The notes under the pieces are model-generated. The model saw only the letters and a program-made list of their open reading frames with translations, ran no database searches and was not told where the DNA came from. The position numbers were made by a program, and so were the translations under genes. From NCBI GenBank assembly GCA_017524165.1, contig JAFWUH010000084.1, forward strand, positions 1 to 45,109: DNA of 45,109 bases. The letters run 5' to 3'. The first letter of the stretch is position 1. Every line of letters starts with the position of its first letter. This DNA comes from Clostridia bacterium. GTDB taxonomy: Bacteria > Bacillota > Clostridia > Oscillospirales > Acutalibacteraceae. Of the stretch, positions 13,833 through 32,144 are shown piece by piece.

Positions 13833-16337
13833 TCACTTGCCCTTTAATCCCAACCGGGCAATCGCATCTTCGCGCATTTTATATTTCAGAATCTTTCCGG
13901 CAACATTCATCGGGAAAGCGTCGGTAAATTCAATATACCGCGGCACCTTATGCCGTGCCATATGTTCATTGATATAGCCTTTCATCTCGTCCGCCGTCAT
14001 ACTTTCGCCGTCCTTCAAAATGATACAAGCCATAATTTCCTCGCCATACTGTTGGTCGGGCACGCCAATGACCTGAACATCCTTGACCTTCGGATGGGTA
14101 TAAATAAATTCCTCGATTTCTTTCGGATAAATATTTTCCCCGCCGCGAATGATCATATCCTTCAGGCGCCCGGTGATGCGGTAATTTCCCTCTTTGGTAC
14201 GGCAAGCCAAATCGCCGGTGTGCAACCAACCGTCTTGATCAATCGCCGCGGCGGTTTCGGTCGGCATTTTATAGTAACCCTTCATAATGTTATACCCGCG
14301 TGCCACAAATTCACCCGTAACCTCATCGGGACAATCTTCGCCGGTTTCGGGATCAACGATTTTACATTCAATTTCGGGCAAAGCGCGACCAACCGTACTG
14401 ACGCGCACCTCGATCGGATCATCGACCGAAGACATCGTACAACCGGGTGAAGATTCCGTTTGTCCGTAAACAATCGTGATCTCCCGCATATTCATTTTGT
14501 CAATGACATCCTGCATGACCGAAATCGGGCAGGGACTGCCCGCCATAATACCGGTGCGGACATGAGAAAAATCGGTTTTGGGGAAATCGGGATGTTCCAG
14601 CAGCGCAATAAACATGGTCGGCACGCCGTGAAACGCCGTAATTTGTTCATCATTGATACAATTCAGCGCGGGCTTTGGCGCATAATAGGGCAACGGATAA
14701 ATCGTCACGCCATGTGTCATCGACGCCGTCATTGCCAACACCATACCGAAACAATGGAACATCGGCACCTGAATCATCATACGGTCGGCGGTCGACAGAT
14801 CCATTCTGTCACCGATACATTTACCGTTGTTCACAACATTGTAGTGGGTTAACATAACACCTTTCGGGAATCCCGTGGTACCCGAAGTATACTGCATATT
14901 GCAGACATCGTCCTTGCGAACCTCGGCAGCCATACGGTAGACCTCTTCGACCGGCACATTACGCGCTTTATCCAAGGCTTCTTCCCAGGTGATACAACCC
15001 TTTTGACGGAATCCGACGGTAATAATATTGCGCAAAAACGGCAACCGACGGCTATGTAACGGGCTGCCGCTCGGCGTATCCTGCAATTCAGGACACAGCG
15101 TCGCCATCACTTCGGCATAGTTAGAATCGCGGAATCCCTCGATCATGATAAGCGTATGGGTATCCGACTGTTTTAAAAGATATTCCGCCTCATGAATTTT
15201 ATAGGCCGTGTTCATCGAAACAAGAACCGCACCGATTTTGGTCACCGCCCAAAACGCAATATACCATTGCGGTACATTGGTCGCCCAAACAGCAACATGG
15301 TCGCCGGCACCGACGCCCATGGCGATCAATGAGCGCGCAAAAGTATCGACATCGCGCCGAAATTCATAATAGGTTCTGGTATAATCCAAGGTCGTATATT
15401 TGAATGCCAGGTGATCCGGAAACTCTTCCACCATACGATCCAAAACCTGCGAAAAGGTACAGTCGATCAGTAATTCCTTTTTCCAAACATACTGACCGGT
15501 ATGCGCATTGTTATAATAAAGCGATTTCCGCGTGTGCTCGGCATGGTTATACTGACTCATATAGCTTTCAAACTGCGACAGAATAATTTCCATATCCTGC
15601 AGTTCTTCCATCCAAACCGGATCCCATTCCAATGCAATGAAACCGTCAAAGTTGACCGAACGAAGCGCCAGCATTATTTCGTTGATCGGCAGTTCTCCGT
15701 CGCCCATCAGGCAATAGGAAACTGTCCCGCTGTTCTGCCGGGCATCTTTCAGATGCACATGGCGAATATACGCACCCAAATTCTTGACCGTTTGTTCCGG
15801 TCGCTCATTCCCCGAAAAATAGGTGGAATAGCAGTCCCACAGGGCGGCAATACCGTCACAGGCAAAGTATTCGAGTACATTCCGCAACGATTCGGTATCG
15901 GCAAACAGTCCGCTGGTTTCCAGCAAAAGGGTTACGCCGTCCTGTTCTGCCATCGGCAGAATCTTTTCAATAAACTGTTTTACATGCTCCACATCGCCTG
16001 CCTCACCGTGTGACGAAGCATGGATCCGGATATACGGAATCCGCAGGTTGGCGGCAATGCGAATGCATTCCTCCAATTCAGCAAAAGAATCTTCGGTTTT
16101 TTGCGCGTCGGCAGGATCACAAATACTGTCAATGCAGGGGATTTTTAATTTTTTTTCATATAAAACGCGTCTGGTTGAAGCGGCGGCATAATCATGAAAC
16201 GCACTGTTTTGTGCGGTAAAAAGATCATTGCGCACATTGTGCAGTTCAATGCCGCCAAAACGCAATTCCGCAGCGATATCACACAGCTCTGCAAAGGAAC
16301 GACCGTGCCATCCTTTGGTCGAAAATGCTAATTTCAT
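13833..16337 (-). CDS. TIM-barrel isomerase-like domain fused to AMP-forming acyl-CoA synthetase
   Basis: An 834-residue fusion. Residues 1 to about 275 are a sugar-phosphate isomerase/AP-endonuclease-2-type TIM barrel starting MKLAFSTKGWHG; possible metal ligands are in LLLETSG, ALWDCYS, IRHVHLKDA and IALEWDP, so this half looks intact. Residues from about 285 are an AMP-dependent synthetase: TSGTTGFPKGVML P-loop, GWLHTGDLA, RGGENIYPKEIEE and a C-terminal GKILKYK with the acyl-adenylation Lys. The start overlaps the LeuA-like stop by four bases (ATGA). The Leu-type T-box upstream suggests isovalerate as the acid; this is inference. The role of the TIM barrel is unknown. Confidence 0.88.
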   Translation of the reverse strand: MKLAFSTKGWHGRSFAELCDIAAELRFGGIELHNVRNDLFTAQNSAFHDYAAASTRRVLYEKKLKIPCIDSICDPADAQKTEDSFAELEECIRIAANLRIPYIRIHASSHGEAGDVEHVKQFIEKILPMAEQDGVTLLLETSGLFADTESLRNVLEYFACDGIAALWDCYSTYFSGNERPEQTVKNLGAYIRHVHLKDARQNSGTVSYCLMGDGELPINEIMLALRSVNFDGFIALEWDPVWMEELQDMEIILSQFESYMSQYNHAEHTRKSLYYNNAHTGQYVWKKELLIDCTFSQVLDRMVEEFPDHLAFKYTTLDYTRTYYEFRRDVDTFARSLIAMGVGAGDHVAVWATNVPQWYIAFWAVTKIGAVLVSMNTAYKIHEAEYLLKQSDTHTLIMIEGFRDSNYAEVMATLCPELQDTPSGSPLHSRRLPFLRNIITVGFRQKGCITWEEALDKARNVPVEEVYRMAAEVRKDDVCNMQYTSGTTGFPKGVMLTHYNVVNNGKCIGDRMDLSTADRMMIQVPMFHCFGMVLAMTASMTHGVTIYPLPYYAPKPALNCINDEQITAFHGVPTMFIALLEHPDFPKTDFSHVRTGIMAGSPCPISVMQDVIDKMNMREITIVYGQTESSPGCTMSSVDDPIEVRVSTVGRALPEIECKIVDPETGEDCPDEVTGEFVARGYNIMKGYYKMPTETAAAIDQDGWLHTGDLACRTKEGNYRITGRLKDMIIRGGENIYPKEIEEFIYTHPKVKDVQVIGVPDQQYGEEIMACIILKDGESMTADEMKGYINEHMARHKVPRYIEFTDAFPMNVAGKILKYKMREDAIARLGLKGK

Positions 16338-17746
16338 GCGTTATTGCCCTCCTCATAAACAATTTTGTTGACCGCGTTCAAAAAGGCGCGAATAGAGGAA
16401 CCGATAATATCGGTTGAAATTCCGTTGCCCGAGAAGATCTTGCCGTTGTGCCGCAAGCGAACCAACGCGGAACCCATGGCCTCCCTACCCTCGGTCACCG
16501 CCTGGATCTGAAAGTCATCCAATTCATAGTGGCGACCGATGATCTGCTCTAACGCACGGAACGCGGCGTCAACCGGACCGTCGCCGGTGCAGATACCGGT
16601 TAAAGTCTTTTCGTCTTTCGTCAGCGTGATCTGTGCCGACGCTGTAATAATATTACCGTTGTTGATAACATAGTTTTCCAAACGGTAGGTCGGCGGTACC
16701 TGTAAGGCTGTACTGGCAACAATAGCTTCCAATTCCCTGATCCCAAGCGATTTTCCTTTGTTCACCCGGCAAAATTCTTCATAGACCTTGGTCAAATCCT
16801 CTTCCGACAAATCATAACCGAGGTCTTTCACTGCGGCAACGATTTCTTCGCGATCGGCATCCTGCTGAAAGACAGCATTACCGGCGCCACCGTGTAGTGC
16901 TTCATCCTGGAGGTTCCCGGCTTCTTCACGCTGATTCAACCCGAGGATCCAACCGATTTGACCGGTAATACGCTGTAAATTATTATAATCCAACGAGGTG
17001 GAAACACCCAAGCGACTGCCGCGATGATTCAACACCGAGGAAACCGTGCAGAAGTCCGGGATTTCCCGACTGCCGACCGCACAAAGGATCTCCTCTACCC
17101 CGCTCTTGACCGCCATCAGACAAGAAGCGGAAGCCAAGCCGCTTTCACTCCTGCAAACAACGCCCAATTGAACATTTTGAAGCGCTGGAATATCGTTTTT
17201 TACCGTCTGTAAATAGTCCTGAAACTCATCCGGCAGCATAGCGCCCTCGCTATCGCAAAGCGTGACCGTCTCCACGCCGTTTTGCACGGCAAGCTCGATA
17301 ATCTGTTTTAAAAATTCCGTTTCACTGCGCGTCGCGTCTACAGCGTAAAGCTCAAAAGGAATACCGCTGTTTTTTGCGGCGGCAAATAACTTTTCGGCGA
17401 ACGGAATCATTTTATGCGGTTTTAAATGACATTGATACTCCATCAACACCGCAGAAACCGGCAGACAAAGACGGATCCGACAGTTTTTGGCACTCGCCAG
17501 CGCCGACGCCGTCATTTCGATCGCCGCAAGATCCGGCGCGGTTTCCACCGAAATTTTACTGTTTTTGACAAACGCGGCAACGGTACGAATCAACAACGAG
17601 TCGGTTGTCGGATTGACAATTGCCGGCATTTCAATCACCGCGACACGCAATCGGTCTAAATGTCTGGCAATCTCAATTTTTTCTTTAAACGAGAGGCGTT
17701 TTGCATTCAAAACCAAAGACATTTCGCTGACCGTTAACTGTTTCAT
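16334..17746 (-). CDS. LeuA-like protein lacking catalytic motifs, with LeuA regulatory domain
   Basis: A 470-residue homologue of the 2-isopropylmalate synthase family. The N-terminal 290 residues keep the HMGL barrel pattern (LSFKEKIEIARHLDRLRVAV, VTLCDSEGAMLPDEF). The C-terminal 130 residues are the LeuA allosteric domain, with RLENYVINNG, GICTGDGPVDAAFRAL and STDIIGSS. The TTLRDGEQ motif carrying the catalytic Arg and metal-binding Asp is replaced by MSLVLNAKR, and the HxHND metal site by VCRSES. It therefore should not condense 2-oxoisovalerate with acetyl-CoA. It may be a leucine-binding regulator or scaffold for the coupled ligase. It lies directly behind the Leu-type T-box. Confidence 0.8.
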   Translation of the reverse strand: MKQLTVSEMSLVLNAKRLSFKEKIEIARHLDRLRVAVIEMPAIVNPTTDSLLIRTVAAFVKNSKISVETAPDLAAIEMTASALASAKNCRIRLCLPVSAVLMEYQCHLKPHKMIPFAEKLFAAAKNSGIPFELYAVDATRSETEFLKQIIELAVQNGVETVTLCDSEGAMLPDEFQDYLQTVKNDIPALQNVQLGVVCRSESGLASASCLMAVKSGVEEILCAVGSREIPDFCTVSSVLNHRGSRLGVSTSLDYNNLQRITGQIGWILGLNQREEAGNLQDEALHGGAGNAVFQQDADREEIVAAVKDLGYDLSEEDLTKVYEEFCRVNKGKSLGIRELEAIVASTALQVPPTYRLENYVINNGNIITASAQITLTKDEKTLTGICTGDGPVDAAFRALEQIIGRHYELDDFQIQAVTEGREAMGSALVRLRHNGKIFSGNGISTDIIGSSIRAFLNAVNKIVYEEGNNA

Positions 17747-17770
17747 TTTTCTTCACCTTTTCCAATAAGA

Positions 17771-18036
17771 TAAAAAGTCCCTGAAGCCAATCGGCTTCAG
17801 GGACGAATCACTAAAATCCGCGGTACCACCCTGTTTACTGCAACCTTGCAGTCACTTTCCCGGCTCTAACAAGCCGTTTGCCTTGATAACGGGGCAAGCC
17901 GGAACTTCTTACTGTGATTTCGGAAGCTCTGCTCAGGAATGAGACTTTGTTTTCTTGGCGTATCGGTTTCCACCCCATCCGATTCTCTGTCCCGCACAAC
18001 CGAAAACAAATAGTTCCTTCAATGCATTTCAATATC
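17771..18036 (-). promoter_or_regulatory. T-box leader 1, specifier read as CUC (Leu)
   Basis: A T-box riboswitch upstream of the LeuA-like gene. The T-box AGGGTGGTACCGCGG is at 17818-17832. A terminator with a 12-base stem (GTCCCTGAAGCC/GGCTTCAGGGAC, 17777-17804) and U-run follows. In Stem I, TTTGTTTTC pairs with GAAAACAAA and GGAA with TTCC; the loop between them on the 3' side is GTCTCA. By comparison with B. subtilis glyQS (codon, then A, then base stem) the specifier is CUC at 17941-17943. An AGAGA motif and a GGATGGGGTGG apical region fit Stem I. Uncharged tRNA-Leu would allow readthrough. Confidence 0.88.
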
Positions 18037-18043
18037 TTTTCAA

Positions 18044-18072
18044 ATGATACCACAATTATATCAGAATGTCAA
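18044..18072 (-). promoter_or_regulatory. Promoter of T-box leader 1
   Basis: TTGACA (18067-18072) and TATCAT (18044-18049) with a 17-base spacer on the minus strand. The -35 overlaps the last codons of ilvE, so this unit can be transcribed independently. Confidence 0.8.
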
Positions 18073-19142
18073 CCTTTTTTTATCGGGCAGATCCAATTGA
18101 AGCGATCCTCCACATCGCCGCGTTGGATACCGGTCAAAGTGTCATACAGATGCTGAGAAACTTCACCGATTTCGCCGTTGTTAATGACATAAACCTCATC
18201 TTTGTAGCAAAGCTCTCCGATCGGTGAAATAACGGCGGCGGTACCGCAACCCCATGCTTCTTTTAAGCGACCGTTCTTCATCGCGTCAACCAACTCATCA
18301 ACGCTCAACAGGCGCTCGTGAACGGTATAGCCTTCGCTCTTCAGCAATTCCACGCAGGATTTACGGGTAATACCGGGCAGGATAGAACCGTCCAACGCCG
18401 GGGTCACAATCTCATCGTCAATACGGAACATGACATTCATAGCACCGACTTCTTCAATGTATTTGCGCTCGACACCGTCCAACCACAAAACCTGCGAATA
18501 GCCGAGTTCTGCGGCGCGTTGTCCGGCACGGGTGCTGGCGCCATAGTTGCCGCCGCATTTCGCCTCGCCGGTGCCGCCGCGAACGGCGCGGACATCTTCG
18601 GTCTCGATCATGATTTTAACCGGATTCAAGCCCTCTTTGAAATAACTGCTTGCCAACGAAGCAATTACAACATAGGTCACGCTCGATACCGAGTGCACAC
18701 CCAAAGATTGGTCATTGCCGAACATAAACGGACGCAGATAAAGGGTCGTTCCCGGTGCGGTCGGCACCCAATCATACTCGACCGAAACAAAGGTCTTTAA
18801 AATTTCCAGCGCGTCGTCTTCGGGAATGGTCGGCAGGCACATGCGTTCCGCCGAACGGTTCAAACGGCGAACATTTTCGATCGGGCGGAAGAGTTGAACC
18901 TCTCCGGTTTTGGTACGGTACGCCTTTAAGCCCTCAAAAATTTCCGATCCGTAGTGCAGTACGGTCGAAGCCGGATGCAGGGAAAGATTTTGGAACGGCA
19001 CAATGCGCGCGTCATGCCATCCGCCTTGATCAGCATCATATTCCATGATAAACATATGGTCTGTAAAAATCTTTCCGAATCCGTACTCGGCATTCTCCGG
19101 TTTTTTTGCCGGTGCTGTGTTCTTTGTAATTGAAATATTCAT
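18069..19142 (-). CDS. ilvE: Branched-chain amino acid aminotransferase
   Basis: A 357-residue class IV PLP aminotransferase interconverting Leu, Ile, Val and their 2-oxo acids with glutamate. The PLP lysine is in GEAKCGGNYGAS. Other family motifs are LHYGSEIFEGLKAYR, RPFMFGND, EEVGAMNVMF, LPGITRKS and the C-terminal GCGTAAVISPI. The length fits the BCAT type II subgroup. It starts two bases after the oxidoreductase gamma gene and is the last gene of the Val-T-box unit. The neighbours suggest that it aminates 2-oxo acids made by the oxidoreductase. Confidence 0.95.
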   Translation of the reverse strand: MNISITKNTAPAKKPENAEYGFGKIFTDHMFIMEYDADQGGWHDARIVPFQNLSLHPASTVLHYGSEIFEGLKAYRTKTGEVQLFRPIENVRRLNRSAERMCLPTIPEDDALEILKTFVSVEYDWVPTAPGTTLYLRPFMFGNDQSLGVHSVSSVTYVVIASLASSYFKEGLNPVKIMIETEDVRAVRGGTGEAKCGGNYGASTRAGQRAAELGYSQVLWLDGVERKYIEEVGAMNVMFRIDDEIVTPALDGSILPGITRKSCVELLKSEGYTVHERLLSVDELVDAMKNGRLKEAWGCGTAAVISPIGELCYKDEVYVINNGEIGEVSQHLYDTLTGIQRGDVEDRFNWICPIKKG

Positions 19143-19144
19143 CC

Positions 19145-19690
19145 TTAACCCTCCTGATAATCTCTGCCGATTTTCATGGCATTTAAGTTGACATCCAACA
19201 TATCGGCATGTTTTGCCGAAACAACCTTTTTGAGCGCATCCACCACGGCTTGTTCGTTTTCAAAGCCGTTGGTTTCCGCCAAAACCTTGCCCATCAAAAT
19301 GATGTTTGCCATTTTCGGGATATTATGATCCGAAGCAATTTTGGTAGCCGGAACATAGAAAACCTGAACATCGGTACGCTCGACCTTGCGTTCCACCAGG
19401 GTGGAATCGACGAAAATCATGCCGCCGGGTCTTACCGCGGATTCGTATCTGTCCAAAGAAGGTAAATTCATGGCGATCAGGACATCCGGGGTCACCACGA
19501 TGGGCGAGGCAACCTCTTTATCGCTGATAACGACCCCGCAGCTGGCGGTACCGCCGCGCATTTCAGGACCGTAGGAGGGCAACCAACTGACATTCATGCC
19601 GTCGATCAGACCTTTGTATGCCAACAATTTGCCCGAGAACAAAATTCCCTGTCCGCCGAATCCGGCAAACAAATACTGCGTGGTAGCCAT
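19145..19690 (-). CDS. 2-oxoacid:ferredoxin oxidoreductase, gamma subunit
   Basis: A 181-residue gamma subunit of the VOR/KOR family. It starts MATTQYLFAGFGGQGI and carries SYGPEMRGGTASC, both standard gamma-subunit motifs. Its ATG directly abuts the beta-subunit stop (TAAATG). It forms a complex with the alpha, beta and ferredoxin subunits in the same operon. The substrate (branched-chain 2-oxo acids versus 2-oxoglutarate) is inferred from ilvE and the T-boxes, not from the protein itself. Confidence 0.92.
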   Translation of the reverse strand: MATTQYLFAGFGGQGILFSGKLLAYKGLIDGMNVSWLPSYGPEMRGGTASCGVVISDKEVASPIVVTPDVLIAMNLPSLDRYESAVRPGGMIFVDSTLVERKVERTDVQVFYVPATKIASDHNIPKMANIILMGKVLAETNGFENEQAVVDALKKVVSAKHADMLDVNLNAMKIGRDYQEG

Positions 19691-20443
19691 TTATTCGTCC
19701 CCCTTCTCTGCCGAACGATCCTTATAAACGCCCAAAGGATAATAAGGAATCATCTTTTCGTCGATCCATTGCAATGCCTTTTGCGGAGTCAATCCCCAGT
19801 TGGTCGGACAGCTGGAAAGGACTTCGATCAACGAAAAGCCTTTGCCGTTGATCTGATTTTCAAACGCCTTTTTAATGGCTTTCTTGGCGTTTTTGATGTT
19901 TTTAACATTATTCACCGCCACACGCGCTAAATACTCCGGACCGTCAAGCTGAGAAAGCATCTCGCAGACCTTCACCGGATAGCCGCAAAGATTGACATCA
20001 CGGCCGTAGGGCGATGTTTGCGTGACCTGCCCCGGCAACGAAGTCGGCGCCATCTGACCGCCGGTCATGCCGTAAATAGCGTTGTTGATAAAAATAACGG
20101 TAATATTTTCGTTACGGGCGGCGGAATGAACCGTTTCCGCCGTACCGATGGAAGCCAGGTCGCCGTCACCCTGATAGGTGAAAACGATATTTTCGGGATC
20201 CGAGCGTTTCACGCCTGTTGCCACTGCCGGCGCTCTGCCGTGCGCCGCTTCAATCATATCAAAATTAAAGTAGTCATACGCCATGACCGAACAACCAACC
20301 GGTGCAATACCGATGGTTTTCCCTTCAATGCCGAGCTCATCAATGACCTCTGCCACCAAACGATGCACGATGCCGTGGGTACAACCCGGACAATAGTGCA
20401 GCGGCACATCGGTCAGCGCATGCGGTTTATCAAAAATAACCAT
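19691..20443 (-). CDS. 2-oxoacid:ferredoxin oxidoreductase, beta subunit (TPP-binding)
   Basis: A 250-residue thiamine-diphosphate subunit. HYCPGCTHGI is at residues 16-25, GCSVMAYDY follows, and the TPP/Mg motif runs from GDGDLASIG to the NNAIYGMTGGQ segment. Its start overlaps the alpha stop by one base (TAATG) behind GGAGGTG. It catalyses decarboxylation of the 2-oxo acid or, with reduced ferredoxin, reductive carboxylation of the acyl-CoA. Confidence 0.93.
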   Translation of the reverse strand: MVIFDKPHALTDVPLHYCPGCTHGIVHRLVAEVIDELGIEGKTIGIAPVGCSVMAYDYFNFDMIEAAHGRAPAVATGVKRSDPENIVFTYQGDGDLASIGTAETVHSAARNENITVIFINNAIYGMTGGQMAPTSLPGQVTQTSPYGRDVNLCGYPVKVCEMLSQLDGPEYLARVAVNNVKNIKNAKKAIKKAFENQINGKGFSLIEVLSSCPTNWGLTPQKALQWIDEKMIPYYPLGVYKDRSAEKGDE

Positions 20444-21507
20444 TATTTTGCACCTCCGTTATGAATTGATAAAATTGCATCCAAAACCTGTTCCGGCAAC
20501 GGAATCATACCGCCGGTACGGTTGCAAAGGCTGACCGGCGCTTTTCCGTTGACCGCCAGACGAACATCTTCGATCATCTGTCCCATCGACAGCTCGACCG
20601 AGAGGAAATGCCCGACTTTCTCAGCTGCCGCGGCAAAGGCTTTGGTCGGGAACGGCCACAGGGTGATCGGACGGATCAAGCCGACCTTGACGCCCTGTTC
20701 GCGCGCCTGATCAATAGCGTTCTTCGCCACACGCGCGGCAATACCGAACGCCGCAACACAGATTTCGGCGTCCTCCATCTTATATTCCTCATAAAGGACT
20801 TCGTTTTCTTCAATCACTTTATAGCGTTCAAAACGGTCAAAGTTGGTCTTCTCCAACAGGTCGGGTTTCAAATAAAGCGAGTTAATAATATTATGTTCGC
20901 GTTTCATGCCCGTGCCGGTAACCGCCCACGGCTTTTCCACCGGGTCACGGAATTTGAAATCCAACGAAACGGGTTCCATCATCTGACCCATCGTACCGTC
21001 CGCCAAAATCATGGCTGTCATGCGATACTGATCCGCCAATTCAAAGCCGCGTACCGTCAATTCTGCCATTTCCTGCACCGAATCGGGCGCCAAAACGATC
21101 ATGTGAAAATCGCCGTGCGCGCCGCCTTTGGTGGCTTGGAAATAGTCGGATTGGGAGGGTTGAATACCGCCGAGTCCGGGGCCGCCGCGCTGTACATTGA
21201 CGACCAACGCTGGCAGATCCGCACCCGCCAAATAGGAGAGTCCCTCTCCTTTCAGCGAGATACCGGGGCTTGACGAGGAGGTCATCACCCGTTTTCCGGT
21301 TGACGCCACCCCGTATACCATATTGATGGCGGCAATTTCACTTTCCGCCTGTAAGAATGTTCCGCCGATTTTAGGCATCCGCTTTGCCATATATGCGGCA
21401 ACTTCGGTCTGCGGGGTAATCGGATACCCGAAATAGTGACGACAACCTGCCAGAATTGCGGCTTCGGCAATCGCCTCGTTTCCTTTCATTAAAACCTTAT
21501 CAGCCAT
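20443..21507 (-). CDS. 2-oxoacid:ferredoxin oxidoreductase, alpha subunit
   Basis: A 354-residue alpha subunit (VorB/KorA type). Typical motifs are GCRHYFGYPITPQTEVA, FLQAESEIAAINMVYG, RVMTSSSSPGISL and NVQRGGPGLGG, with CNRTGG near the end. The start is taken as ATG 21507 (MADKVLMKGN), nine bases after AGGA; an in-frame GTG at 21513 would add two residues. The gene order ferredoxin-alpha-beta-gamma is standard for VOR/KOR enzymes. Confidence 0.93.
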   Translation of the reverse strand: MADKVLMKGNEAIAEAAILAGCRHYFGYPITPQTEVAAYMAKRMPKIGGTFLQAESEIAAINMVYGVASTGKRVMTSSSSPGISLKGEGLSYLAGADLPALVVNVQRGGPGLGGIQPSQSDYFQATKGGAHGDFHMIVLAPDSVQEMAELTVRGFELADQYRMTAMILADGTMGQMMEPVSLDFKFRDPVEKPWAVTGTGMKREHNIINSLYLKPDLLEKTNFDRFERYKVIEENEVLYEEYKMEDAEICVAAFGIAARVAKNAIDQAREQGVKVGLIRPITLWPFPTKAFAAAAEKVGHFLSVELSMGQMIEDVRLAVNGKAPVSLCNRTGGMIPLPEQVLDAILSIHNGGAK

Positions 21508-21522
21508 AATCACCCGTCCTTT

Positions 21523-21729
21523 CTACTTTTCAATCTTAATAATGCAATCCGGACACATGGTCGCGCAGAATGCACAACCGATGCAGTCTTCCGGATTTGC
21601 GGCTTCCACCGGATGGTGTCCTTTTTTGTTAATCTTGTCCTTGGCGAGGATCAATACCTTTTTGGGGCAAACCTCGACACACAGTCCGCAACCTTTACAC
21701 AGATCGGTTTTAAAGGTTAATCGTGCCAT
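21523..21729 (-). CDS. 2-oxoacid oxidoreductase delta subunit, 2[4Fe-4S] ferredoxin
   Basis: A 68-residue iron-sulfur protein with two complete [4Fe-4S] motifs: CKGCGLCVEVCP at about residues 11-22 and CIGCAFCATMCP at about 49-60. It carries electrons between the TPP centre and free ferredoxin. It lies 15 bases before the alpha gene and 12 after the ATPase gene. Confidence 0.93.
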   Translation of the reverse strand: MARLTFKTDLCKGCGLCVEVCPKKVLILAKDKINKKGHHPVEAANPEDCIGCAFCATMCPDCIIKIEK

Positions 21730-21741
21730 AACAACTCTCCT

Positions 21742-22401
21742 TTACAGTTTCTTCTGTAACTCCAGCGGATACAGATGAGGTATTTTATTCTTCAGCGGTT
21801 CGTACAATTCCCGTGCGACCGTTGTGAACAACAATGGAAGACCGGTTTGACGGCAGAGCTCCCCGGCATAAGCCATCGAATGTTCCACATCCTCCGGCGC
21901 GGTTTCCCTGCCTAAATTGGAATTATTGATAATGCCGGAAAATTTCAGCCGGCAGGCATTTTCAATTTCCCGCATGACTTCGACGGTCGTCGCCGCCGTT
22001 CGGGTCAACGGACGGTAACAGTTTACCACCAAAAGCATATCGTAGTTTGCTTCTTCGGCAATTTTCGGGGAAAGCCGACCGAGCGCCAGCGCGCCGCGTT
22101 CATCTCCGCCCACATCGACAATGCTGTACAGTTCCCGGTCATCAGTGACGCTGTACATTTCCTGCGGCAGAGCGGGAATGTCCACATTTGAGTTGGCATA
22201 GGGCGAACAAATCAGCCGGATATCCTCTTTTTGTAACAGCGCTTCGCTGTCCTTGGTGCGAAAATACGGATTGACAATATCAATATCCGCAATCGCGACC
22301 CGCGGCTTTTGTTGCCGCAATTCTCTTGCCAGATTTACGGCGATATTGGTTTTGCCGCTGCCGTAATGACCTGAAAGAATGGTGATTCGTTTAAAATTCA
22401 T
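21742..22401 (-). CDS. P-loop ATPase (ParA/MinD-like), unknown role
   Basis: A 219-residue P-loop NTPase. The Walker A motif GHYGSGKTN is at residues 11-19, IADIDIVNPYFR follows like a MinD/ParA deviant-Walker second region, and IVDVGGDERGA looks like a Walker B segment. It lies between the ligase and the ferredoxin subunit, spaced 14 and 12 bases, so it is co-transcribed. A function in assembling or maturing the oxidoreductase is a guess from position. The ribosome binding site is weak, which suggests coupled translation. Confidence 0.75.
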   Translation of the reverse strand: MNFKRITILSGHYGSGKTNIAVNLARELRQQKPRVAIADIDIVNPYFRTKDSEALLQKEDIRLICSPYANSNVDIPALPQEMYSVTDDRELYSIVDVGGDERGALALGRLSPKIAEEANYDMLLVVNCYRPLTRTAATTVEVMREIENACRLKFSGIINNSNLGRETAPEDVEHSMAYAGELCRQTGLPLLFTTVARELYEPLKNKIPHLYPLELQKKL

Positions 22402-22415
22402 GTTCTCTACCCAAT

Positions 22416-24704
22416 TTAAAGTTTACTGCGTTGAATCTTGCCGCTGACCGTTTTCGGCAGTTCATCACGGAAGACAACAATACGCGGATATTTATACGGC
22501 GCGGTATGTTCCTTGACATAGTTTTGAATCTCTTTTTTCAGTTCTTCGGTCGGTTCGGTGCCCTTGACCAGCACAATGCTTGCCTTGACCACCTGACCGC
22601 GGACTTCATCCGGCGCCGCCGAAACGCCGCATTCCAATACATACGGCAGTTCCATGATCACGCTTTCAATTTCAAACGGCCCGATGCGGTAACCCGACGA
22701 TTTAATGACATCGTCGGCACGGCCGACATACCAATAAAATCCGTCCTCATCGCACCACGCCATATCACCGGTATGATAATAACCGTCATGCCAGACCTCA
22801 GCGGTTTTTTCAGGATCGCGGTAATAGCCGACAAACAAGCCGCACGGAGCGCCGTTTTTGGTATTGATCACAATTTCACCCGTTTCGCCGACTGCAACCG
22901 GTTTTCCGTCCGCCGAAAGCAGTTCAACATTATAAATCGGTGCCGGTTTACCCATCGAACCGAGCTTATGCGGCGCGCCGGTCAAATTGCCGATGACCAT
23001 GGTTGTTTCGGATTGCCCGAAGCCCTCCAAAATCTGCAATCCCGTCGCCTTTTCAAACTGACGGTAAACTTCGGGGTTCAACGCCTCCCCGGCGGTGGTC
23101 ATGTGCTTAATTGAAGAAAGGTCATATTTGGAAATATCCTCTTTCACGAGCATCCGCAGCATGGTCGGCGGTGCACAAAAGGTGGTAATATGATATTTTT
23201 GGAACATCGGGAGAATATCAGCCGCATGGAAACGGTCAAAGTCATAGACAAAGGTAGCCGCTTCACAGAGCCATTGACCGTAAAATTTACCCCACATAGC
23301 TTTTGCCCAACCGGTGTCGGAAATGGTGAAATGCAATCCGTCCGGGTCGACATTGTGCCAATATTTCGCGGTATGAAAATGTCCAAGCGCATATTTATAG
23401 CTATGCGCGGCAATTTTCGGATATCCCGTTGTGCCCGATGTAAAGAACATCAACATGATATCGTCTCCGCAGGCGCAATCAGGCTGACGGTCAAAATGAG
23501 TGCTGAACAGAGAAAACTCTTCATCAAAATCATGCCAGCCGTCGCGTTTGCCGCCCACCATGATTTTATATTCCAAGGTCGGTGAAGATTGCGCCGCGAT
23601 ATCCACTTCCTGCGCTGTATTACCCTTTTCGGTGCAGAGGATCGCGCGAACGCCCGCCGCTTGAAAACGGTATTCAAAATCGTGCGACAGCAACTGATTC
23701 ACCGCCGGAATGCCGATCGCACCGATGCGGTGTAAGCCCAGCATGGCAAACCAGAACTGATAATGGCGCCCGAGCACCAACATCACGCGGTCGCCCTTTT
23801 GGATGCCCAACGATTTAAAGTAGTTTGCCGCTTTGCAGGAATACTTTTTCATATCGGCAAAGGTAAAACGGTGTTCGGTCAAATCGTTGGCGACATGCAC
23901 CATCGCCGTTTTTTCGGGCGATTTTGCGGCAATCGCATCCACAACATCATACGCAAAATTGAAGTCATCGGTATTCTTAAACCGAATCGAGATCGGCGTG
24001 CCGTTTTCATCCTCCACGCGCTCGACAAAGCGCTGGGAAATGCGTTCTTCGGGATCCCGGTCACGCGGCTTGGATTGCATGATCGGCGCCTTTTGCAGTT
24101 CGGGAACCGGCTCGCCGGTCGGATTCAAGACAATGGCATAAAAGGTACAGTCTTTACCGCCGACGGCAATCATACCGTGCGGCGAAGCACTGTCATAATA
24201 AATACTGTCGCCTGCCGATAAAATCTCGGTATGTTCCCCGACCTGAACCTTCAACTGTCCCTCAATGACAATATCACATTCCTGCCCGGCATGGGTCGTC
24301 AATTCGATCGGTTGATTTTGTGCTTTTTCTCTATATTTACTGCAAACATAAAGCGGTTCGGCAATACGGTTGCGAAAGGACGCCGCCAGGTTAAAATAGG
24401 TCATCCCATGCGCCTGCTCAATGCGCTGACCCTCCCCGCGTTTGGTAACAATATAGGACTTTAAGGTCGGGCTTTGCCCTTCGATAATATCGGTAACATC
24501 GACATTAAAGGCTTGCGCGCAACGGTATAAAAACGCAAAGTTTAAATCCTGTTCGCCGTTTTCGCAAGCGCGGTACTCCTCCACGCTGACGCCGGTTTCC
24601 TGCGCCATCTGTTCAACGGTCAATCCCTCAATTTCGCGCAGTTCAACAATGCGGCGTGCCATTTCTTTGATTTTTCGATCCAACCCCGTCAGACTGCTTT
24701 GCAT
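22416..24704 (-). CDS. XRE-cupin regulator fused to AMP-forming acyl-CoA synthetase, copy A
   Basis: A 762-residue fusion. Residues 12-75 form an XRE helix-turn-helix (EGLTVEQMAQETGVSVEEY), about 110-200 a cupin (HAGQECDIVIEGQLKVQVG, GDSIYYDSASPHGM), and 240-762 an AMP-dependent synthetase with FFTSGTTGYPKIAAHS, EGFGQSETTM, YHTGDMAWCDEDGFYW, KSSGYRIGPFEIES and the C-terminal KTVSGKIQRSKL. It converts a carboxylic acid, ATP and CoA to acyl-CoA. It heads the Val-type T-box unit, followed by the ATPase, oxidoreductase and ilvE genes, so isobutyrate is the inferred substrate. ATG 24704 follows GGAGG by eight bases. Confidence 0.9.
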   Translation of the reverse strand: MQSSLTGLDRKIKEMARRIVELREIEGLTVEQMAQETGVSVEEYRACENGEQDLNFAFLYRCAQAFNVDVTDIIEGQSPTLKSYIVTKRGEGQRIEQAHGMTYFNLAASFRNRIAEPLYVCSKYREKAQNQPIELTTHAGQECDIVIEGQLKVQVGEHTEILSAGDSIYYDSASPHGMIAVGGKDCTFYAIVLNPTGEPVPELQKAPIMQSKPRDRDPEERISQRFVERVEDENGTPISIRFKNTDDFNFAYDVVDAIAAKSPEKTAMVHVANDLTEHRFTFADMKKYSCKAANYFKSLGIQKGDRVMLVLGRHYQFWFAMLGLHRIGAIGIPAVNQLLSHDFEYRFQAAGVRAILCTEKGNTAQEVDIAAQSSPTLEYKIMVGGKRDGWHDFDEEFSLFSTHFDRQPDCACGDDIMLMFFTSGTTGYPKIAAHSYKYALGHFHTAKYWHNVDPDGLHFTISDTGWAKAMWGKFYGQWLCEAATFVYDFDRFHAADILPMFQKYHITTFCAPPTMLRMLVKEDISKYDLSSIKHMTTAGEALNPEVYRQFEKATGLQILEGFGQSETTMVIGNLTGAPHKLGSMGKPAPIYNVELLSADGKPVAVGETGEIVINTKNGAPCGLFVGYYRDPEKTAEVWHDGYYHTGDMAWCDEDGFYWYVGRADDVIKSSGYRIGPFEIESVIMELPYVLECGVSAAPDEVRGQVVKASIVLVKGTEPTEELKKEIQNYVKEHTAPYKYPRIVVFRDELPKTVSGKIQRSKL
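22433..22847. repeat. Near-identical tract shared by the two ligase genes, copy A
   Basis: This 415-bp segment coding for the C-terminal ligase domain matches 25061-25475 with about 14 differences by eye (about 96-97%). Outside it the genes drop to roughly 65-70% similarity. This is the pattern left by recent gene conversion. Confidence 0.7.
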
Positions 24705-24730
24705 GCTTCATTCCTCCGTTTTCCGGGACG

Positions 24731-25000
24731 AAAAGAACACCCGTCCCAAAGATGTTTCTTTGAGACGGGTGAAAAACTTTCACTCGCGGTACCACTCAAA
24801 TTGCGATCACATCGCCACTCAGGGTCCAACAACCCTTATGCCTTTACGCAGCAATCACGGGAAGGTTCTACTCGACAAATGCTTTCTTCCTTCCGGCTCG
24901 GAAGTTACAGTACTGAAACACTCTAAACGGTTTGCACCACCCACCGTCTCTCTGTCAAGAGTCTGAAACAATACCCTCTTCGTCAACGCTTTTTACATTT
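24731..25000 (-). promoter_or_regulatory. T-box leader 2, specifier read as GUA (Val)
   Basis: A T-box riboswitch before ligase A. The T-box TTTGAGTGGTACCGCGAG is at 24783-24800. The terminator CACCCGTCTCAAAG/CTTTGGGACGGGTG with a six-base loop is at 24738-24771, followed by GTTCTTTT. In Stem I, GAAG pairs with CTTC and GTATTG with CAGTAC, leaving TGTAA on the 3' side, so the specifier is GUA at 24906-24908 followed by A. A GACAGAGAG motif and apical GGGTGGTG are present. The assignment to Val rests on hand folding. Confidence 0.85.
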
Positions 25001-25006
25001 TAAGTC

Positions 25007-25036
25007 AGTATACCACATCTTTGGTCTGTTTGTCAA
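25007..25036 (-). promoter_or_regulatory. Promoter of T-box leader 2
   Basis: TTGACA (25031-25036) and TATACT (25007-25012), 18-base spacer on the minus strand, just downstream of the ligase B stop codon. Confidence 0.8.
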
Positions 25037-25043
25037 TGATTTT

Positions 25044-27305
25044 TTACAGCAAATTTCGCTGAATCTTGCCGCTGATGGTTTTCGGCAGTTCGTCACGGAA
25101 GACAACGATACGCGGATATTTATACGGCGCGGTATGTTCCTTGACATAGTTCTGAATTTCTTTTTTCAGTACTTCGGTCGGTTCGGTGCCCTTGACCAGC
25201 ACAATGCTTGCCTTGACCACCTGACCGCGGACTTCATCCGGTGCCGCCGAAACGCCGCATTCCAATACATACGGCAGTTCCATGATCACGCTTTCAATTT
25301 CAAACGGCCCGATGCGGTAACCCGACGATTTAATTACATCGTCGGCACGGCCGACATACCAATAAAATCCGTCCTCATCGCACCATGCCATATCACCGGT
25401 ATGATAATAACCGTCATGCCAGACCTCAGCGGTTTTTTCGGGATCTCGGTAATAGCCGAGGAACAAGCCGCACGGGATTTTTTCGTCGGTTTTAATCACA
25501 ATTTCACCCGGTTTGCCGCAGGGCACCGGATTACCGTCGGCATCGATTAACGAGATATCGTAGAGCGGCACCGCTTTTCCCATAGAACCCAATTTACAAA
25601 CAGAACCAGTCAAATTAGCGATTGCCAATGTAATTTCGGTCTGCCCGAATCCCTCCATGATCCGCAGTCCGGTCGCATCCAGGAACTGGCGATACACTTC
25701 GGGATTCAACGCCTCTCCGGCGGTGGTCATATGCTTCACCGAAGAAAGGTCATATTTAGAAAGGTCTTCTTTGATCAGCATCCGCAGCATGGTCGGCGGC
25801 GCACAGAAGGTCGTGATTTGATATTGTTTAAAGAGCGGAAGAATATCCGCGGCATGGAAACGCTCGAAGTCATAGGTGAAGACGGCACCCTCACAAAGCC
25901 ATTGACCGTACAGTTTTCCCCAAAGGGCTTTGCCCCAACCGGTATCCGAGATGGTAAAGTGCAATCCGTCGTCGAAAACGCCGTGCCAATACTTCGCGGT
26001 GATATAATGTCCTAACGGGTACTTATAACTGTGCATAGCGATTTTCGGATAGCCGGTGGTGCCCGAAGTGAAGAACATCAACATCGGATCATCCCCGCAA
26101 GGCGTCTCCGGCGTACGGTAAAAATGAGCGCTGTACAGACTGAATTCCTCGTCAAAAGAACGCCAGCCGTCGCGTTTGCCGCCGACAATAATTTTATTCG
26201 TCAATTCAGGACATTGCGCCGCCGCCAAATCCGCCTGATGCGCAACATCCCCGTAGGCGGTACACAAAATAGCGCTGACTCCGGCCGCTTGAAAACGGTA
26301 GGTAAAATCATGCTCCTGCAACTGCGTGGTTGCCGGAATGGCAATCGCGCCGAGCTTATGCAAACCTAAAATCGCATACCAGAATTGATAGTGCCGACCA
26401 AGCACCAGCATCACGCGGTCGCCTTTTTTAATCCCGATGGATTTAAAATAATTCGCGCACATGTTGGAGCCGCGTTTCATATCCGCAAAAGAGAATCGAC
26501 GCTCTACCCGGTTACGATCCAGATGCAGCATAGCCAATTTGCCCGGATTCTTTTTCGCAATCGCATCCACCACATCAAAGGCAAAGTTAAAGCTATCCTC
26601 GTTATGGAATAAAATCTTCTCCAATTTTCCGGTTTCATCTTCCACCGTTTCAATGAAACGGTCACCGACATGGTCCACATGTTGCGACGGTGCCAGTGTT
26701 TCGCGAATGATAGTTTCGGTGGTATCCTCACCCGGTAAAACGACCGCGACAAACAGGCAGTCCCGACCGTCAACGGCAATCATACCATGCGGCGTCGAGC
26801 TGTTATAATAAATGCTGTCGCCTTCGTTTAAATACTCGACATGATCACCGATCTGCACCTTTAACCGTCCGCTCATCACCAGGTCAAATTCCTGACCCGA
26901 GTGGGTTGCCAAATGGATCGGCTCATTTTGAAGACTTTCATCATAATCATATTTGACCCAATACGGTTCGGCAATTTTTTTGCGGAATTGCGGCGCCAGG
27001 CTTTTAATTTCGATCCCGTTTTCTTTCGCCGTTTGCTGTCCTTCGCCCTTCCTGGTCACCGTGTAAGAAGACAGGTGTGCGCTCTGCCCCTCCATCAAAT
27101 CAGTAATACCGATGCCGAACACCAACGAACATTTATGAATAAAACTAAACGGAAAATCGCGTTTGCCCGATTCAAATTCAACATACTCTTCCGGAGACAC
27201 CCCGGTTTTTTGCGCCATTTCTTCCATCGTAATGCCGTCGATCTCACGCATTTCCCGAATTCGGTTTGCCACTTCCATTAAAGCGTTATTAGCAACTGTT
27301 GACAT
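25044..27305 (-). CDS. XRE-cupin regulator fused to AMP-forming acyl-CoA synthetase, copy B
   Basis: A 753-residue paralogue of copy A with the same order: XRE helix-turn-helix at about residues 10-70 (DGITMEEMAQKTGVSPEEY), cupin at about 105-195 (HSGQEFDLVMSGRLKVQIG, GDSIYYNSSTPHGM), AMP-dependent synthetase to the end (FFTSGTTGYPKIAMHS, EGFGQTEITLA, KTISGKIQRNLL). The start is ATG 27305 behind AAGGAGG; an in-frame start at 27386 lies inside the T-box leader and is excluded. It is the only gene behind the Ile-type T-box, so 2-methylbutyrate is the inferred acid. The C-terminal 138 codons are nearly identical to copy A. Confidence 0.9.
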   Translation of the reverse strand: MSTVANNALMEVANRIREMREIDGITMEEMAQKTGVSPEEYVEFESGKRDFPFSFIHKCSLVFGIGITDLMEGQSAHLSSYTVTRKGEGQQTAKENGIEIKSLAPQFRKKIAEPYWVKYDYDESLQNEPIHLATHSGQEFDLVMSGRLKVQIGDHVEYLNEGDSIYYNSSTPHGMIAVDGRDCLFVAVVLPGEDTTETIIRETLAPSQHVDHVGDRFIETVEDETGKLEKILFHNEDSFNFAFDVVDAIAKKNPGKLAMLHLDRNRVERRFSFADMKRGSNMCANYFKSIGIKKGDRVMLVLGRHYQFWYAILGLHKLGAIAIPATTQLQEHDFTYRFQAAGVSAILCTAYGDVAHQADLAAAQCPELTNKIIVGGKRDGWRSFDEEFSLYSAHFYRTPETPCGDDPMLMFFTSGTTGYPKIAMHSYKYPLGHYITAKYWHGVFDDGLHFTISDTGWGKALWGKLYGQWLCEGAVFTYDFERFHAADILPLFKQYQITTFCAPPTMLRMLIKEDLSKYDLSSVKHMTTAGEALNPEVYRQFLDATGLRIMEGFGQTEITLAIANLTGSVCKLGSMGKAVPLYDISLIDADGNPVPCGKPGEIVIKTDEKIPCGLFLGYYRDPEKTAEVWHDGYYHTGDMAWCDEDGFYWYVGRADDVIKSSGYRIGPFEIESVIMELPYVLECGVSAAPDEVRGQVVKASIVLVKGTEPTEVLKKEIQNYVKEHTAPYKYPRIVVFRDELPKTISGKIQRNLL
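25061..25475. repeat. Near-identical tract shared by the two ligase genes, copy B
   Basis: Partner of 22433-22847; equal length, same orientation, about 2.63 kb away. Confidence 0.7.
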
Positions 27306-27324
27306 CTTTGTTTCCTCCTTATAA

Positions 27325-27585
27325 CAAAAAAACCGTCCCAAAGCGTTTGCTTTGAGACGGGTGAATTGGTTCACTCGCGGTACCACTCAAATTGCGATCA
27401 CATCGCCACTCAAGGTCTAACAACCTTTATGCCTTTACGCAGCAATCACGGAAGGACCTACTGTTCGTTCAATCCTTCGGCTCGGAAGGGATGGGTTCTT
27501 ATAAAAAGCAACTATCGGCTCACACCAACCGCCGACTCTCTGAAAGCGTTTTTTACAACCGTCTTCGTCATAGCCTTTTTAAACT
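27325..27585 (-). promoter_or_regulatory. T-box leader 3, specifier read as AUC (Ile)
   Basis: A T-box riboswitch before ligase B. The T-box TTTGAGTGGTACCGCGAG lies at 27374-27391, and the terminator CCGTCTCAAAG/CTTTGGGACGG at 27333-27360 ends in seven U. In Stem I, GAAG pairs with CTTC and GGTT with AACC, leaving CATCC, so the specifier is AUC at 27490-27492. The following base is C, where a purine is usual; this weakens the call slightly. The 3' half is nearly identical to leader 2, so the two probably arose by duplication with a change of specifier. Confidence 0.83.
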
Positions 27586-27591
27586 AAAGTC

Positions 27592-27620
27592 ATTATACTC
27601 TGCTTTTTGCTTTTTGTCAA
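27592..27620 (-). promoter_or_regulatory. Promoter of T-box leader 3
   Basis: Perfect TTGACA (27615-27620) and TATAAT (27592-27597), 17-base spacer, on the minus strand. Confidence 0.85.
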
Positions 27621-29314: not shown

Positions 29315-30109
29315 TCAGTTCAGCAACATTCTGTCCGATTCCTGATTTTCACCGGCAATTTCGGCGAATTTCGCCATCAAGTCGGCTTTGGTAAGCTTGG
29401 CTTTCTCTTCGCCGGACACATCATAGATAATCTTTCCCTGATTCATCATAATCAGTCGATTGCCGTGTTGAATGGCATCTTTCATATTATGCGTAATCAT
29501 AATCGCGGTAAGATGATTTTCAGCAACGATTCTATCGGTCAATGCAAGTACCTTAGACGCCGTCGCCGGATCCAACGCGGCAGTGTGTTCATCCAGTAAA
29601 AGGAGTTTCGGTTTCTGCATAGCAGCCATCAGCAAGGTGATTGCCTGACGCTGACCGCCTGAAAGCAGACCCATTTTGGTGGAAAGCCTGTTCTCCAGTC
29701 CCAAATCGAGTTGTGTCAGCAATTCGCGGAATCGTTCCCTGTCCTTTTTGGTGATTGCCCATTTGATCGTTCGATGTTTTCCGCGGCTTTCGGCAATCGA
29801 AAGATTTTCTTCCACCCACATATCCGCGGCAGTGCCCATCATCGGATCCTGAAACACTCTGCCGATATACTTGGCTCTTTTATATTCGGGCAAATTGGTA
29901 ATGTTCTGCCCGTCTACCGTCACTTCACCGCTATCTATGCGGAAAACGCCGGTTATCGCATTCAGCATGGTAGATTTCCCGGCACCGTTACCGCCGATCA
30001 CGGTAACAAAATCTTCATTTTCCAATTTCAAATTTAACTGATTCAGCGCTTTTTTCTCATTGATCGTTCCCGCGTTGAATGTTTTACTGACATTTTTAAT
30101 TTCAAGCAT
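29315..30109 (-). CDS. ABC transporter ATP-binding protein
   Basis: A 264-residue ATPase: Walker A GGNGAGKST at about residues 39-47, signature LSGGQRQA at about 147, Walker B LLLLDEHTA and the H-loop MITHNMKD. It pairs with the upstream permease, which its start overlaps by eight bases. This ATPase type accompanies permeases and binding proteins of the ABC_sub_bind family, as in the TrpXYZ-like importers. The substrate is not evident. Confidence 0.9.
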   Translation of the reverse strand: MLEIKNVSKTFNAGTINEKKALNQLNLKLENEDFVTVIGGNGAGKSTMLNAITGVFRIDSGEVTVDGQNITNLPEYKRAKYIGRVFQDPMMGTAADMWVEENLSIAESRGKHRTIKWAITKKDRERFRELLTQLDLGLENRLSTKMGLLSGGQRQAITLLMAAMQKPKLLLLDEHTAALDPATASKVLALTDRIVAENHLTAIMITHNMKDAIQHGNRLIMMNQGKIIYDVSGEEKAKLTKADLMAKFAEIAGENQESDRMLLN

Positions 30110-31022: not shown

Positions 31023-31041
31023 CTTTCTATTGTTCCCTTTC

Positions 31042-31084
31042 AAAAAAAAGCAGAATGCCGCCGTCTGCTGAATGCAAACGGCGG
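31042..31084 (-). terminator. Attenuating hairpin between binding-protein and permease genes
   Basis: Two overlapping stems: CCGCCGT/ACGGCGG (31058-31064 with 31078-31084) and GCAGA/TCTGC (31050-31054 with 31064-31068). The second is followed directly by eight T on the minus strand. The stems share bases, so only one can form at a time. Partial termination would keep the binding protein in excess. Confidence 0.6.
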
Positions 31085-31101
31085 TAATCCTTATGCTATT
31101 G

Positions 31102-32070: not shown

Positions 32071-32100
32071 ATATTTTCCTCTTTTCAAATTGATAGCTCT

Positions 32101-32144
32101 ATCATAATCCAATCATTGACAAAAGTCAAATGAATGATTATAAT
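32101..32144. promoter_or_regulatory. Overlapping divergent promoters of the ABC operon and lysR
   Basis: Plus strand (lysR): TTGACA 32116-32121, 17-base spacer, TATAAT 32139-32144, all consensus. Minus strand (binding protein): TTGACT 32124-32129, 17-base spacer, TATGAT 32101-32106. The two promoters share DNA, so polymerase cannot occupy both. Confidence 0.75.

Follow-up and report, generated by a model that had tools for sequence, protein, structure and literature searches.

A clostridial locus with three T-box leaders that very probably makes isoleucine, valine and leucine from scavenged branched-chain acids, and LeuX, its LeuA homologue without catalytic motifs

We analyzed a 45,109-nucleotide (nt) stretch of the genome of a gut Clostridia bacterium (assembly GCA_017524165.1, contig JAFWUH010000084.1, positions 1 to 45,109), hereafter the window, and found on its minus strand, from 27620 down to 13833, three gene units, each with its own promoter-like site and T-box leader. 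This locus very probably makes Ile, Val and Leu by reductive carboxylation of scavenged branched-chain acids, replacing the ilv and leu pathways. Unit 1 consists of a T-box with the specifier AUC followed only by the ligase ACS1. Unit 2 joins a GUA T-box to the ligase ACS2, a P-loop NTPase gene, a ferredoxin-like gene, the alpha, beta and gamma genes of a 2-oxoacid:ferredoxin oxidoreductase and a branched-chain amino acid aminotransferase (BCAT). Unit 3 places a CUC T-box ahead of LeuX, a homologue of the 2-isopropylmalate synthase LeuA, and of a third ligase, TIM-FadD. In the mechanism that we propose, shortage of one amino acid would leave the cognate tRNA uncharged, the matching T-box would read through, and the ligase for the precursor acid would be made. 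We infer that the acids are 2-methylbutyrate for ACS1, isobutyrate for ACS2 and isovalerate for TIM-FadD, and that neighboring microbes would provide them. The oxidoreductase supplied by the Val unit would serve all three branches, turning acyl-CoA, CO2 and reduced ferredoxin into 2-oxoacids, which the BCAT, likewise shared and supplied by the Val unit, would transaminate. End-product feedback would likely act at the helix-turn-helix (HTH) and cupin domains of ACS1 and ACS2, and at LeuX for the Leu ligase.

T-boxes 1 and 3 scored 104.7 and 106.6 bits against the Rfam model RF00230, above its gathering score of 93, and T-box 2 fell below it at 80.1 bits, yet with E = 2.6e-16. In a leader-specific covariance model, T-box 2 scored 79.4 bits, being itself among the model's seeds. 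A regex reading of specifiers gave several candidates per leader, and we used instead this covariance model, derived from a stem I alignment of 32 leaders. It was run over 80 GTDB loci (89 matches) and 37 sources drawn from the window and from genomes of the family (42 matches); the 131 matches include the seeds, which had been picked without regard to the specifier letters. On the covariance alignment, the window specifiers were AUC, GUA and CUC (Ile, Val, Leu). A preliminary description of the window, made from its letters alone, had reported three T-boxes and read the same codons by hand, and both claims held up. Among the relatives, the leaders before ACS1 read AUC in 18 of 18 cases and those before ACS2 read GUA (22) or GUC (6), all 28 for Val, where ACS1 and ACS2 denote the best BLAST hit to the two window ligases. 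Before the 74 LEUX-class genes, we found CUC 64 times, CUG 9 times and GAA once, that is, Leu in 73 of 74. Across the 120 leaders of these three classes, the specifier fits the gene in 119, and the sole misfit (L126, GAA) is a weak match of 37.9 bits. One LEUX-class row (L059, CUC) is a true LeuA, and each of the other 73 leaders belongs to a different one of the 107 LeuX loci. In two matches, both CUC, the T-box preceded the P-loop gene, with Vor genes, BCAT, LeuX and TIM-FadD downstream. Of the remaining nine matches, four lacked a reference gene within reach, and five are T-boxes of the host genome, three of them the leaders of the window. Passages of PMC2494555 already describe T-box control of leuA.

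The preliminary description had proposed that the locus is a biosynthetic circuit and had named the absence of ilvBCD and leuBCD as a check on it. In the host assembly (1.53 Mb, 88 contigs, 98.6% complete), ilvD and ilvC gave no match, with ilvB, leuB and leuC outside the search. The sole Aconitase_C match in the genome is an aconitase-sized frame of 659 amino acids (aa), so no LeuD was found. The expected absence was thus borne out for ilvC, ilvD and a LeuD-sized gene, the part that was searched. As a candidate for the missing LeuA, C16:30283 (466 aa, 117.9 bits, among the three listed of four TIGR00973 matches) was rejected; it lies near the aconitase-sized Aconitase_C frame C16:33714 and appears to be a Re-citrate synthase-like gene.

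Within the host's family, LeuX occurs in 29 of 120 genomes, near full length in 28 and as two fragments in one (G060). Matches at E 1e-10 covered 36 genomes, seven of which (G001, G043, G044, G059, G063, G112, G119) were dropped because the match was a true LeuA, some other LeuA or only a short fragment. TIGR00973 alone does not separate true LeuA, since 107 of the 120 genomes match it and 5 exceed its cut-off. We found ilvD over cut-off in 3/29 LeuX-positive versus 59/91 LeuX-negative genomes (Fisher p 2e-7), ilvC in 2/29 versus 61/91 (p 5e-9) and two Aconitase_C matches, taken as aconitase plus LeuD, in 1/29 versus 63/91 (p 9e-11), values that overstate independence because the genomes are related, a point that belongs with the objections gathered below. 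For the LeuD count, a genome with one small Aconitase_C frame was scored as without; the Aconitase_C frame of LeuX-positive G058 has 365 aa, fewer than any other aconitase frame. The anabolic reading is well supported, since the host genome yielded no ilvC, ilvD or LeuD and LeuX-positive relatives rarely have them; the T-boxes and their match to gene class support it too. Beyond the family, a GTDB scan gave at least 582 stretches encoding LeuX relatives, some of them maybe true LeuA. The 80 loci kept are by title mostly ruminant or other gut Clostridia assemblies, with a few from Lentisphaerae/Lentisphaeria or Eggerthellaceae. Class-wide, LeuX matched at E 1e-90 in 39 of 291 genomes, the four weakest (frames of 505-563 aa) being maybe true LeuA; with these four excluded, it occurs in genomes of about 16 families.

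The oxidoreductase alpha, beta and gamma genes, the ferredoxin-like gene and the BCAT are all present, as reductive synthesis of branched-chain amino acids (BCAAs) requires. The specificity of the oxidoreductase and its reductive direction are predicted from sequence. Three acyl-CoA synthetases, one 2-oxoacid oxidoreductase and one BCAT had been named in the preliminary description, and the Pfam and NCBIfam models agreed, with VorB and BCAT over their cut-offs. Its placement of the oxidoreductase and aminotransferase in the Val unit matches the gene order (24704..18069 after the GUA T-box). It had overlooked LeuX, the HTH-cupin and TIM-barrel fusions, the P-loop NTPase and the ferredoxin-like gene, and had treated the three ligases alike; all are AMP-binding, but the Leu ligase is of a different class from ACS1 and ACS2. 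We sampled the neighborhoods of LeuX in 107 stretches, 27 from family genomes and 80 from GTDB contigs, many of which are short. A VorA match was present in 47, two of them at only 25-26% identity and probably other proteins, and these 47 stretches carried a ferredoxin gene in 44, the P-loop gene in 44, a BCAT in 42 and an ACS1/ACS2-type ligase in 42. The P-loop NTPase possibly loads iron-sulfur into the oxidoreductase. The other 60 stretches are without VorA near the Leu unit, partly because of contig ends, yet several of about 20 kb are among them. This implies that the constant module is the Leu unit, for which the full three-unit cluster is one setting among others. At L097 and L103, one Leu T-box heads the P-loop gene, ferredoxin, VorABC, BCAT, LeuX and TIM-FadD, with no ACS1 or ACS2 in the fetched stretch.

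ACS1 and ACS2 share an architecture in which HTH and cupin domains are fused to an AMP-binding ligase, as found by Pfam (for ACS1 on a longer frame of 780 aa). A tree of 48 ligases set the 19 rows under Ile control apart from the 29 under Val control at a single branch with 100/100 support. The best solved relative of ACS2 is 3etc_A (E 9.5e-191, over ACS2 residues 224-760), the MacsMa enzyme of Methanosarcina acetivorans, which according to passages of PMC10455477 prefers 2-methylbutyrate and depends critically on Trp259. This Trp aligns with W471 of ACS2 and W462 of ACS1 once the chain numbering is shifted via the YHTGD motif. Both marks of the MacsMa class, full-length ligase similarity and the pocket Trp, are thus seen, the first in the ACS2 alignment and the second in both ligases. 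Among NCBIfam models, both ligases match MbcS (NF047394) best, at 409.8 bits for ACS1 and 427.2 bits for ACS2; since this is about half of the equivalog cut-off of 850, the two are not MbcS itself. Staphylococcus aureus MbcS is described in parts of PMC10026030 as using 2-methylbutyrate and isobutyrate and as poor on isovalerate, which fits an arrangement where MbcS-class ligases handle the Ile and Val branches and a separate FadD-type class the Leu branch. The best clade-splitting column of the catalytic domain holds Ala467 in 31 of 32 Val-clade and Gly (Gly458) in 25 of 26 Ile-clade ligases, four residues ahead of the Trp equivalent to MacsMa Trp259, and the nearby columns 470, 482 and 484 are also within the top eight of the catalytic part. 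The valine ligase may accordingly be pictured with the smaller pocket. The largest differences between the clades overall fall in the HTH-cupin part, where the conserved cupin residues H138, E142 and H176 are compatible with binding of some ligand. At the DNA level, the ACS1 and ACS2 units are 96-98% identical across about 360 nt of the C-terminal domain (25467-25107) and 91% identical in the T-box 3' half (27463-27351), against 48-85% in the other windows compared. High identity restricted to these two parts is what gene conversion would leave if it spared the regions that set specificity. Unbroken full-length HTH-cupin-ligase fusions, counted without matches shortened by contig ends, occur in 26/29 LeuX-positive versus 4/91 LeuX-negative genomes. 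At L055, L116, L132 and L133, the HTH-cupin protein and the ligase are separate neighboring frames, a likely ancestor of the fusion.

TIM-FadD is a xylose-isomerase-like TIM barrel (residues 1-264) fused to a ligase of another class than ACS1 and ACS2. It lies directly 3' of LeuX in 106 of 107 loci, with a median gap of 5 nt, and at the exception, L127, the sequence ends about 200 nt past LeuX. At E 1e-100, TIM-FadD matched in 52 family genomes: 28 LeuX-positive, 16 LeuX-negative in which the match spans roughly half of the TIM barrel or more, and 8 LeuX-negative with the ligase part only. Of 13 fetched LeuX-negative TIM-FadD loci, 4 carry a T-box on the gene, and all read Leu by eye (CUC, CUC, CUG, CUC); three of the four also pass Rfam, for which 9 of the 13 loci were scanned. 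This suggests that the ligase is tied to leucine by itself and that LeuX looks like an addition. The barrel residues that we take to be metal ligands are unevenly kept in 93 sequences (E140 in 76, D168 in 55, H195 in 85, E237 in 56), and we therefore rejected a catalytic sugar-isomerase role family-wide. With its partly degraded metal site, the TIM barrel may be another dead enzyme domain that was retained for sensing.

LeuX itself combines an HMGL-like barrel (PF00682) with a LeuA_dimer domain (PF08502; 107.7 bits, over the Pfam gathering score of 24.9). The LeuA_dimer domain of known LeuA binds leucine. LeuX reaches 229.8 bits on the 2-isopropylmalate synthase model TIGR00973, below the cut-off of 598.7, and has about 470 aa versus 499-515 in the five true LeuA compared. 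We aligned 108 LeuX sequences (four pairs at least 95% identical) with these five and counted the residues of RDG, HxH, GERAGN and HESGIHQHG, which we take to be the catalytic motifs of LeuA. In RDG, Asp was kept in 3/108, Gly in 6/108 and Arg in 28/108; the HxH histidines were kept in 0/108 and 3/108, the GERAGN Arg in 0/108, and the HESGIHQHG residues in 0/108 except for the last Gly (21/108). By comparison, the Asp and Arg of EDATR were retained in 108/108. Columns conserved at 90% or above numbered 51 of 135 in the C-terminal part versus 28 of the first 275. With the catalytic motifs lost and the regulatory domain conserved, LeuX should not make 2-isopropylmalate, and selection would act mostly on the regulatory domain. 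Given the lost motifs, we rejected a real 2-isopropylmalate synthase at 17746-16334, and LeuX is seemingly catalytically dead.

Several observations weigh against the reading of the locus as a biosynthetic substitute for ilv and leu. The cluster is not constant: besides the incomplete presence of VorA, the covariance model found no leader directly before LeuX in 34 of 107 loci. Some LeuX-positive genomes keep parts of the standard pathways, with ilvD over cut-off in G056, G088 and G060, ilvC in G056 and G088, and a second Aconitase_C gene in G056; G004, G010 and G065 carry IlvD-family matches below cut-off (492-526 versus 618 bits). The VorB model is only subfamily-level, neither beta nor gamma rises above any cut-off, and the solved alpha subunits closest to that of the locus come from generic enzymes for 2-oxoacids or 2-oxoglutarate. 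The shortfall of both ligases from the MbcS cut-off and the uneven metal ligands of the TIM barrel belong here as well. A locus that instead ran catabolically, with BCAT, Vor and the ligases taking amino acids through acyl-CoA to branched acids as in amino acid fermentation, would fit what BCAT and Vor do in peptide fermenters and the reversibility of 2-oxoacid oxidoreductases. We regard it as highly unlikely given that all three units stand under T-boxes, ON when the amino acid is scarce, that the ligases are AMP-forming and cost ATP, and that no ADP-forming synthetase or acyltransferase/kinase pair was seen among nine window genes scanned; moreover, with ilvC, ilvD and a LeuD-sized gene not found, the cell would be without evident synthesis. 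Alternatively, the ligases might make branched acyl-CoA primers for membrane lipids, the role of MbcS in S. aureus (according to parts of PMC10026030), with Vor and BCAT adjacent by coincidence. MbcS is indeed the closest NCBIfam model, and VorA had no match nearby in 60 of 107 LeuX stretches. Lipid priming, however, would not call for amino-acid-specific T-boxes sorted identically three ways across relatives, nor for the company of BCAT and ACS1/ACS2-type ligases in 42 each of the 47 VorA stretches, nor for the rarity of ilv and leu genes where LeuX is present, and we consider it highly improbable.

For LeuX, the explanation to which we give not quite an even chance is that of a retired enzyme turned sensor: after LeuABCD was swapped for isovalerate carboxylation, the kept leucine-binding domain would give feedback on an unrelated isovaleryl-CoA ligase, with HTH-cupin doing likewise for the Ile and Val ligases. 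LeuX may thus be a leucine sensor, with leucine binding and control of TIM-FadD predicted from its domains and position. An enzyme with new chemistry, such as a metal-free aldolase or lyase acting with the ligase's TIM barrel toward isovalerate or leucine, strikes us as unlikely. Part of the old pocket does survive in the invariant EDATR Asp and Arg, and the TIM-barrel His195 is retained in 85 of 93, but the LeuA metal ligands and several catalytic segments are gone (mostly 0-4/108), and the barrel is weakly conserved next to the strongly conserved regulatory domain. Very improbable is a decayed 2-isopropylmalate synthase carried without function: the loss of catalytic motifs would be expected of it, but LeuX aligns as a single frame across more than 420 residues at every one of the 107 loci (with at least 95% identity in four pairs), conserves its regulatory domain strongly and keeps a fixed position just ahead of the ligase.

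The features of the locus are given in Table 1. Among the promoter-like sites that either strand offers between 13500 and 27900, the three with the best scores (12, 11 and 11 of 12 matches) sit just upstream of the three T-boxes. Similarly, the three terminator-like stems with the most pairs in the region (15, 12 and 12) fall inside T-boxes, at 24771-24738, 17804-17777 and 27360-27333, as expected where a terminator overlaps an antiterminator. Region totals are close to those of shuffled sequence (25 versus 18.9 promoter-like and 20 versus 19.7 terminator-like sites), so the weight rests on the quality and position of the sites and not on their number.

Table 1. Features of the three-unit locus in the window, in the order of transcription
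Feature	Coordinates	Strand	Evidence
Promoter-like site, TTGACA-17-TATAAT, 12/12 matches	27592..27620	-	
T-box 1, specifier AUC (Ile) at 27492-27490	27350..27580	-	RF00230 104.7 bits; stem I alignment; specifier tally
ACS1, HTH + cupin + AMP-binding ligase, 753 aa	25044..27305	-	PF12844, PF07883, PF00501, PF13193; translation
Promoter-like site, TTGACA-18-TATACT, 11/12	25007..25036	-	
T-box 2, specifier GUA (Val) at 24908-24906	24758..24995	-	RF00230 80.1 bits (gathering score 93), E 2.6e-16
ACS2, HTH + cupin + AMP-binding ligase, 762 aa	22416..24704	-	Pfam; best solved relative 3etc_A, E 9.5e-191
P-loop NTPase, CbiA/ParA/NUBPL-like	21742..22401	-	PF01656, PF10609
Ferredoxin-like (VorD) gene, 68 aa	21523..21729	-	Translation, relatives; two Cys-rich motifs noted by eye
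2-Oxoacid:ferredoxin oxidoreductase alpha (VorB of NF005507)	20443..21513	-	540.6 bits, cut-off 399
Oxidoreductase beta, thiamine pyrophosphate (TPP)-binding	19691..20443	-	PF02775
Oxidoreductase gamma	19145..19690	-	PF01558
Branched-chain amino acid aminotransferase (BCAT)	18069..19142	-	NF009897 464.9 bits (cut-off 307); TIGR01123 381.4 (cut-off 250)
Promoter-like site, TTGACA-17-TATCAT, 11/12	18044..18072	-	
T-box 3, specifier CUC (Leu) at 17943-17941	17796..18031	-	RF00230 106.6 bits
LeuX, LeuA homologue lacking catalytic motifs, with LeuA regulatory domain, 470 aa	16334..17746	-	PF00682 + PF08502; motif counts n=108
TIM barrel (AP_endonuc_2) + FadD-type AMP-binding ligase fusion, 834 aa	13833..16337	-	Pfam

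Slightly upstream on the same strand, at 29315-32112, lie ABC transporter genes (ABC_tran, BPD_transp_2, ABC_sub_bind). Five other T-boxes of the host genome (L001, L002, L005, L006, L007) precede genes outside the locus: a PheS-like gene, Lrp/AsnC with an aminotransferase, a pyridoxal phosphate (PLP) enzyme, a class II D/K/N-type tRNA synthetase and a ThrS-like gene. Across all eight T-boxes found in the host genome, the gene directly downstream is never ileS, leuS or valS.

If the sensor reading of LeuX is true, each of the three amino acids is paired with both a tRNA-sensing RNA switch and a protein-level end-product sensor, and we propose LeuX as a clear case of a biosynthetic enzyme retained only for its allosteric domain. 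The locus points to genes that may underlie the dependence of gut anaerobes on the branched-chain acids of their neighbors, and LeuX would be a sequence marker for such dependence. Moreover, the substrate specificity of each ligase would be readable from the RNA switch upstream of it, and Ala467/Gly458 is a one-residue candidate determinant of that specificity. In open-access titles and abstracts, with most subscription journals outside the search, we found no description of a T-box-sorted three-ligase set, of HTH-cupin-ligase fusions or of LeuX.

Rumen anaerobes convert branched acids to acyl-CoA, carboxylate these to 2-oxoacids with reduced ferredoxin and transaminate the products. The chemistry of the locus is alike, but unlike the rumen route as known, the locus unites in one cluster a specific T-box and a dedicated ligase for each of the three amino acids, together with candidate sensors. 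Compared with MacsMa and S. aureus MbcS, known enzymes that use small alpha-branched acids, ACS1 and ACS2 belong to the same ligase class and conserve the pocket Trp259 of MacsMa; unlike them, they bear HTH-cupin domains, form Ile and Val clades and score about half of the MbcS cut-off. DbuR of Pseudomonas putida is an XRE-type regulator tied to BCAA metabolism, according to PMC12724383; the XRE-type HTH and the BCAA link are common to DbuR and the two ligases, with HTH-cupin fused to the ligase in the latter. With 2-isopropylmalate synthase, LeuX shares the HMGL-like barrel, the LeuA_dimer domain and an upstream Leu T-box, as at the true-LeuA locus L059, but it differs from LeuA in its shorter length and in lacking the catalytic motifs, the HESGIHQHG segment included. 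The chemistry is known from rumen anaerobes, and what appears new, within the open-access literature searched, is the three-way T-box sorting of ligases, the ligase fusions and LeuX.

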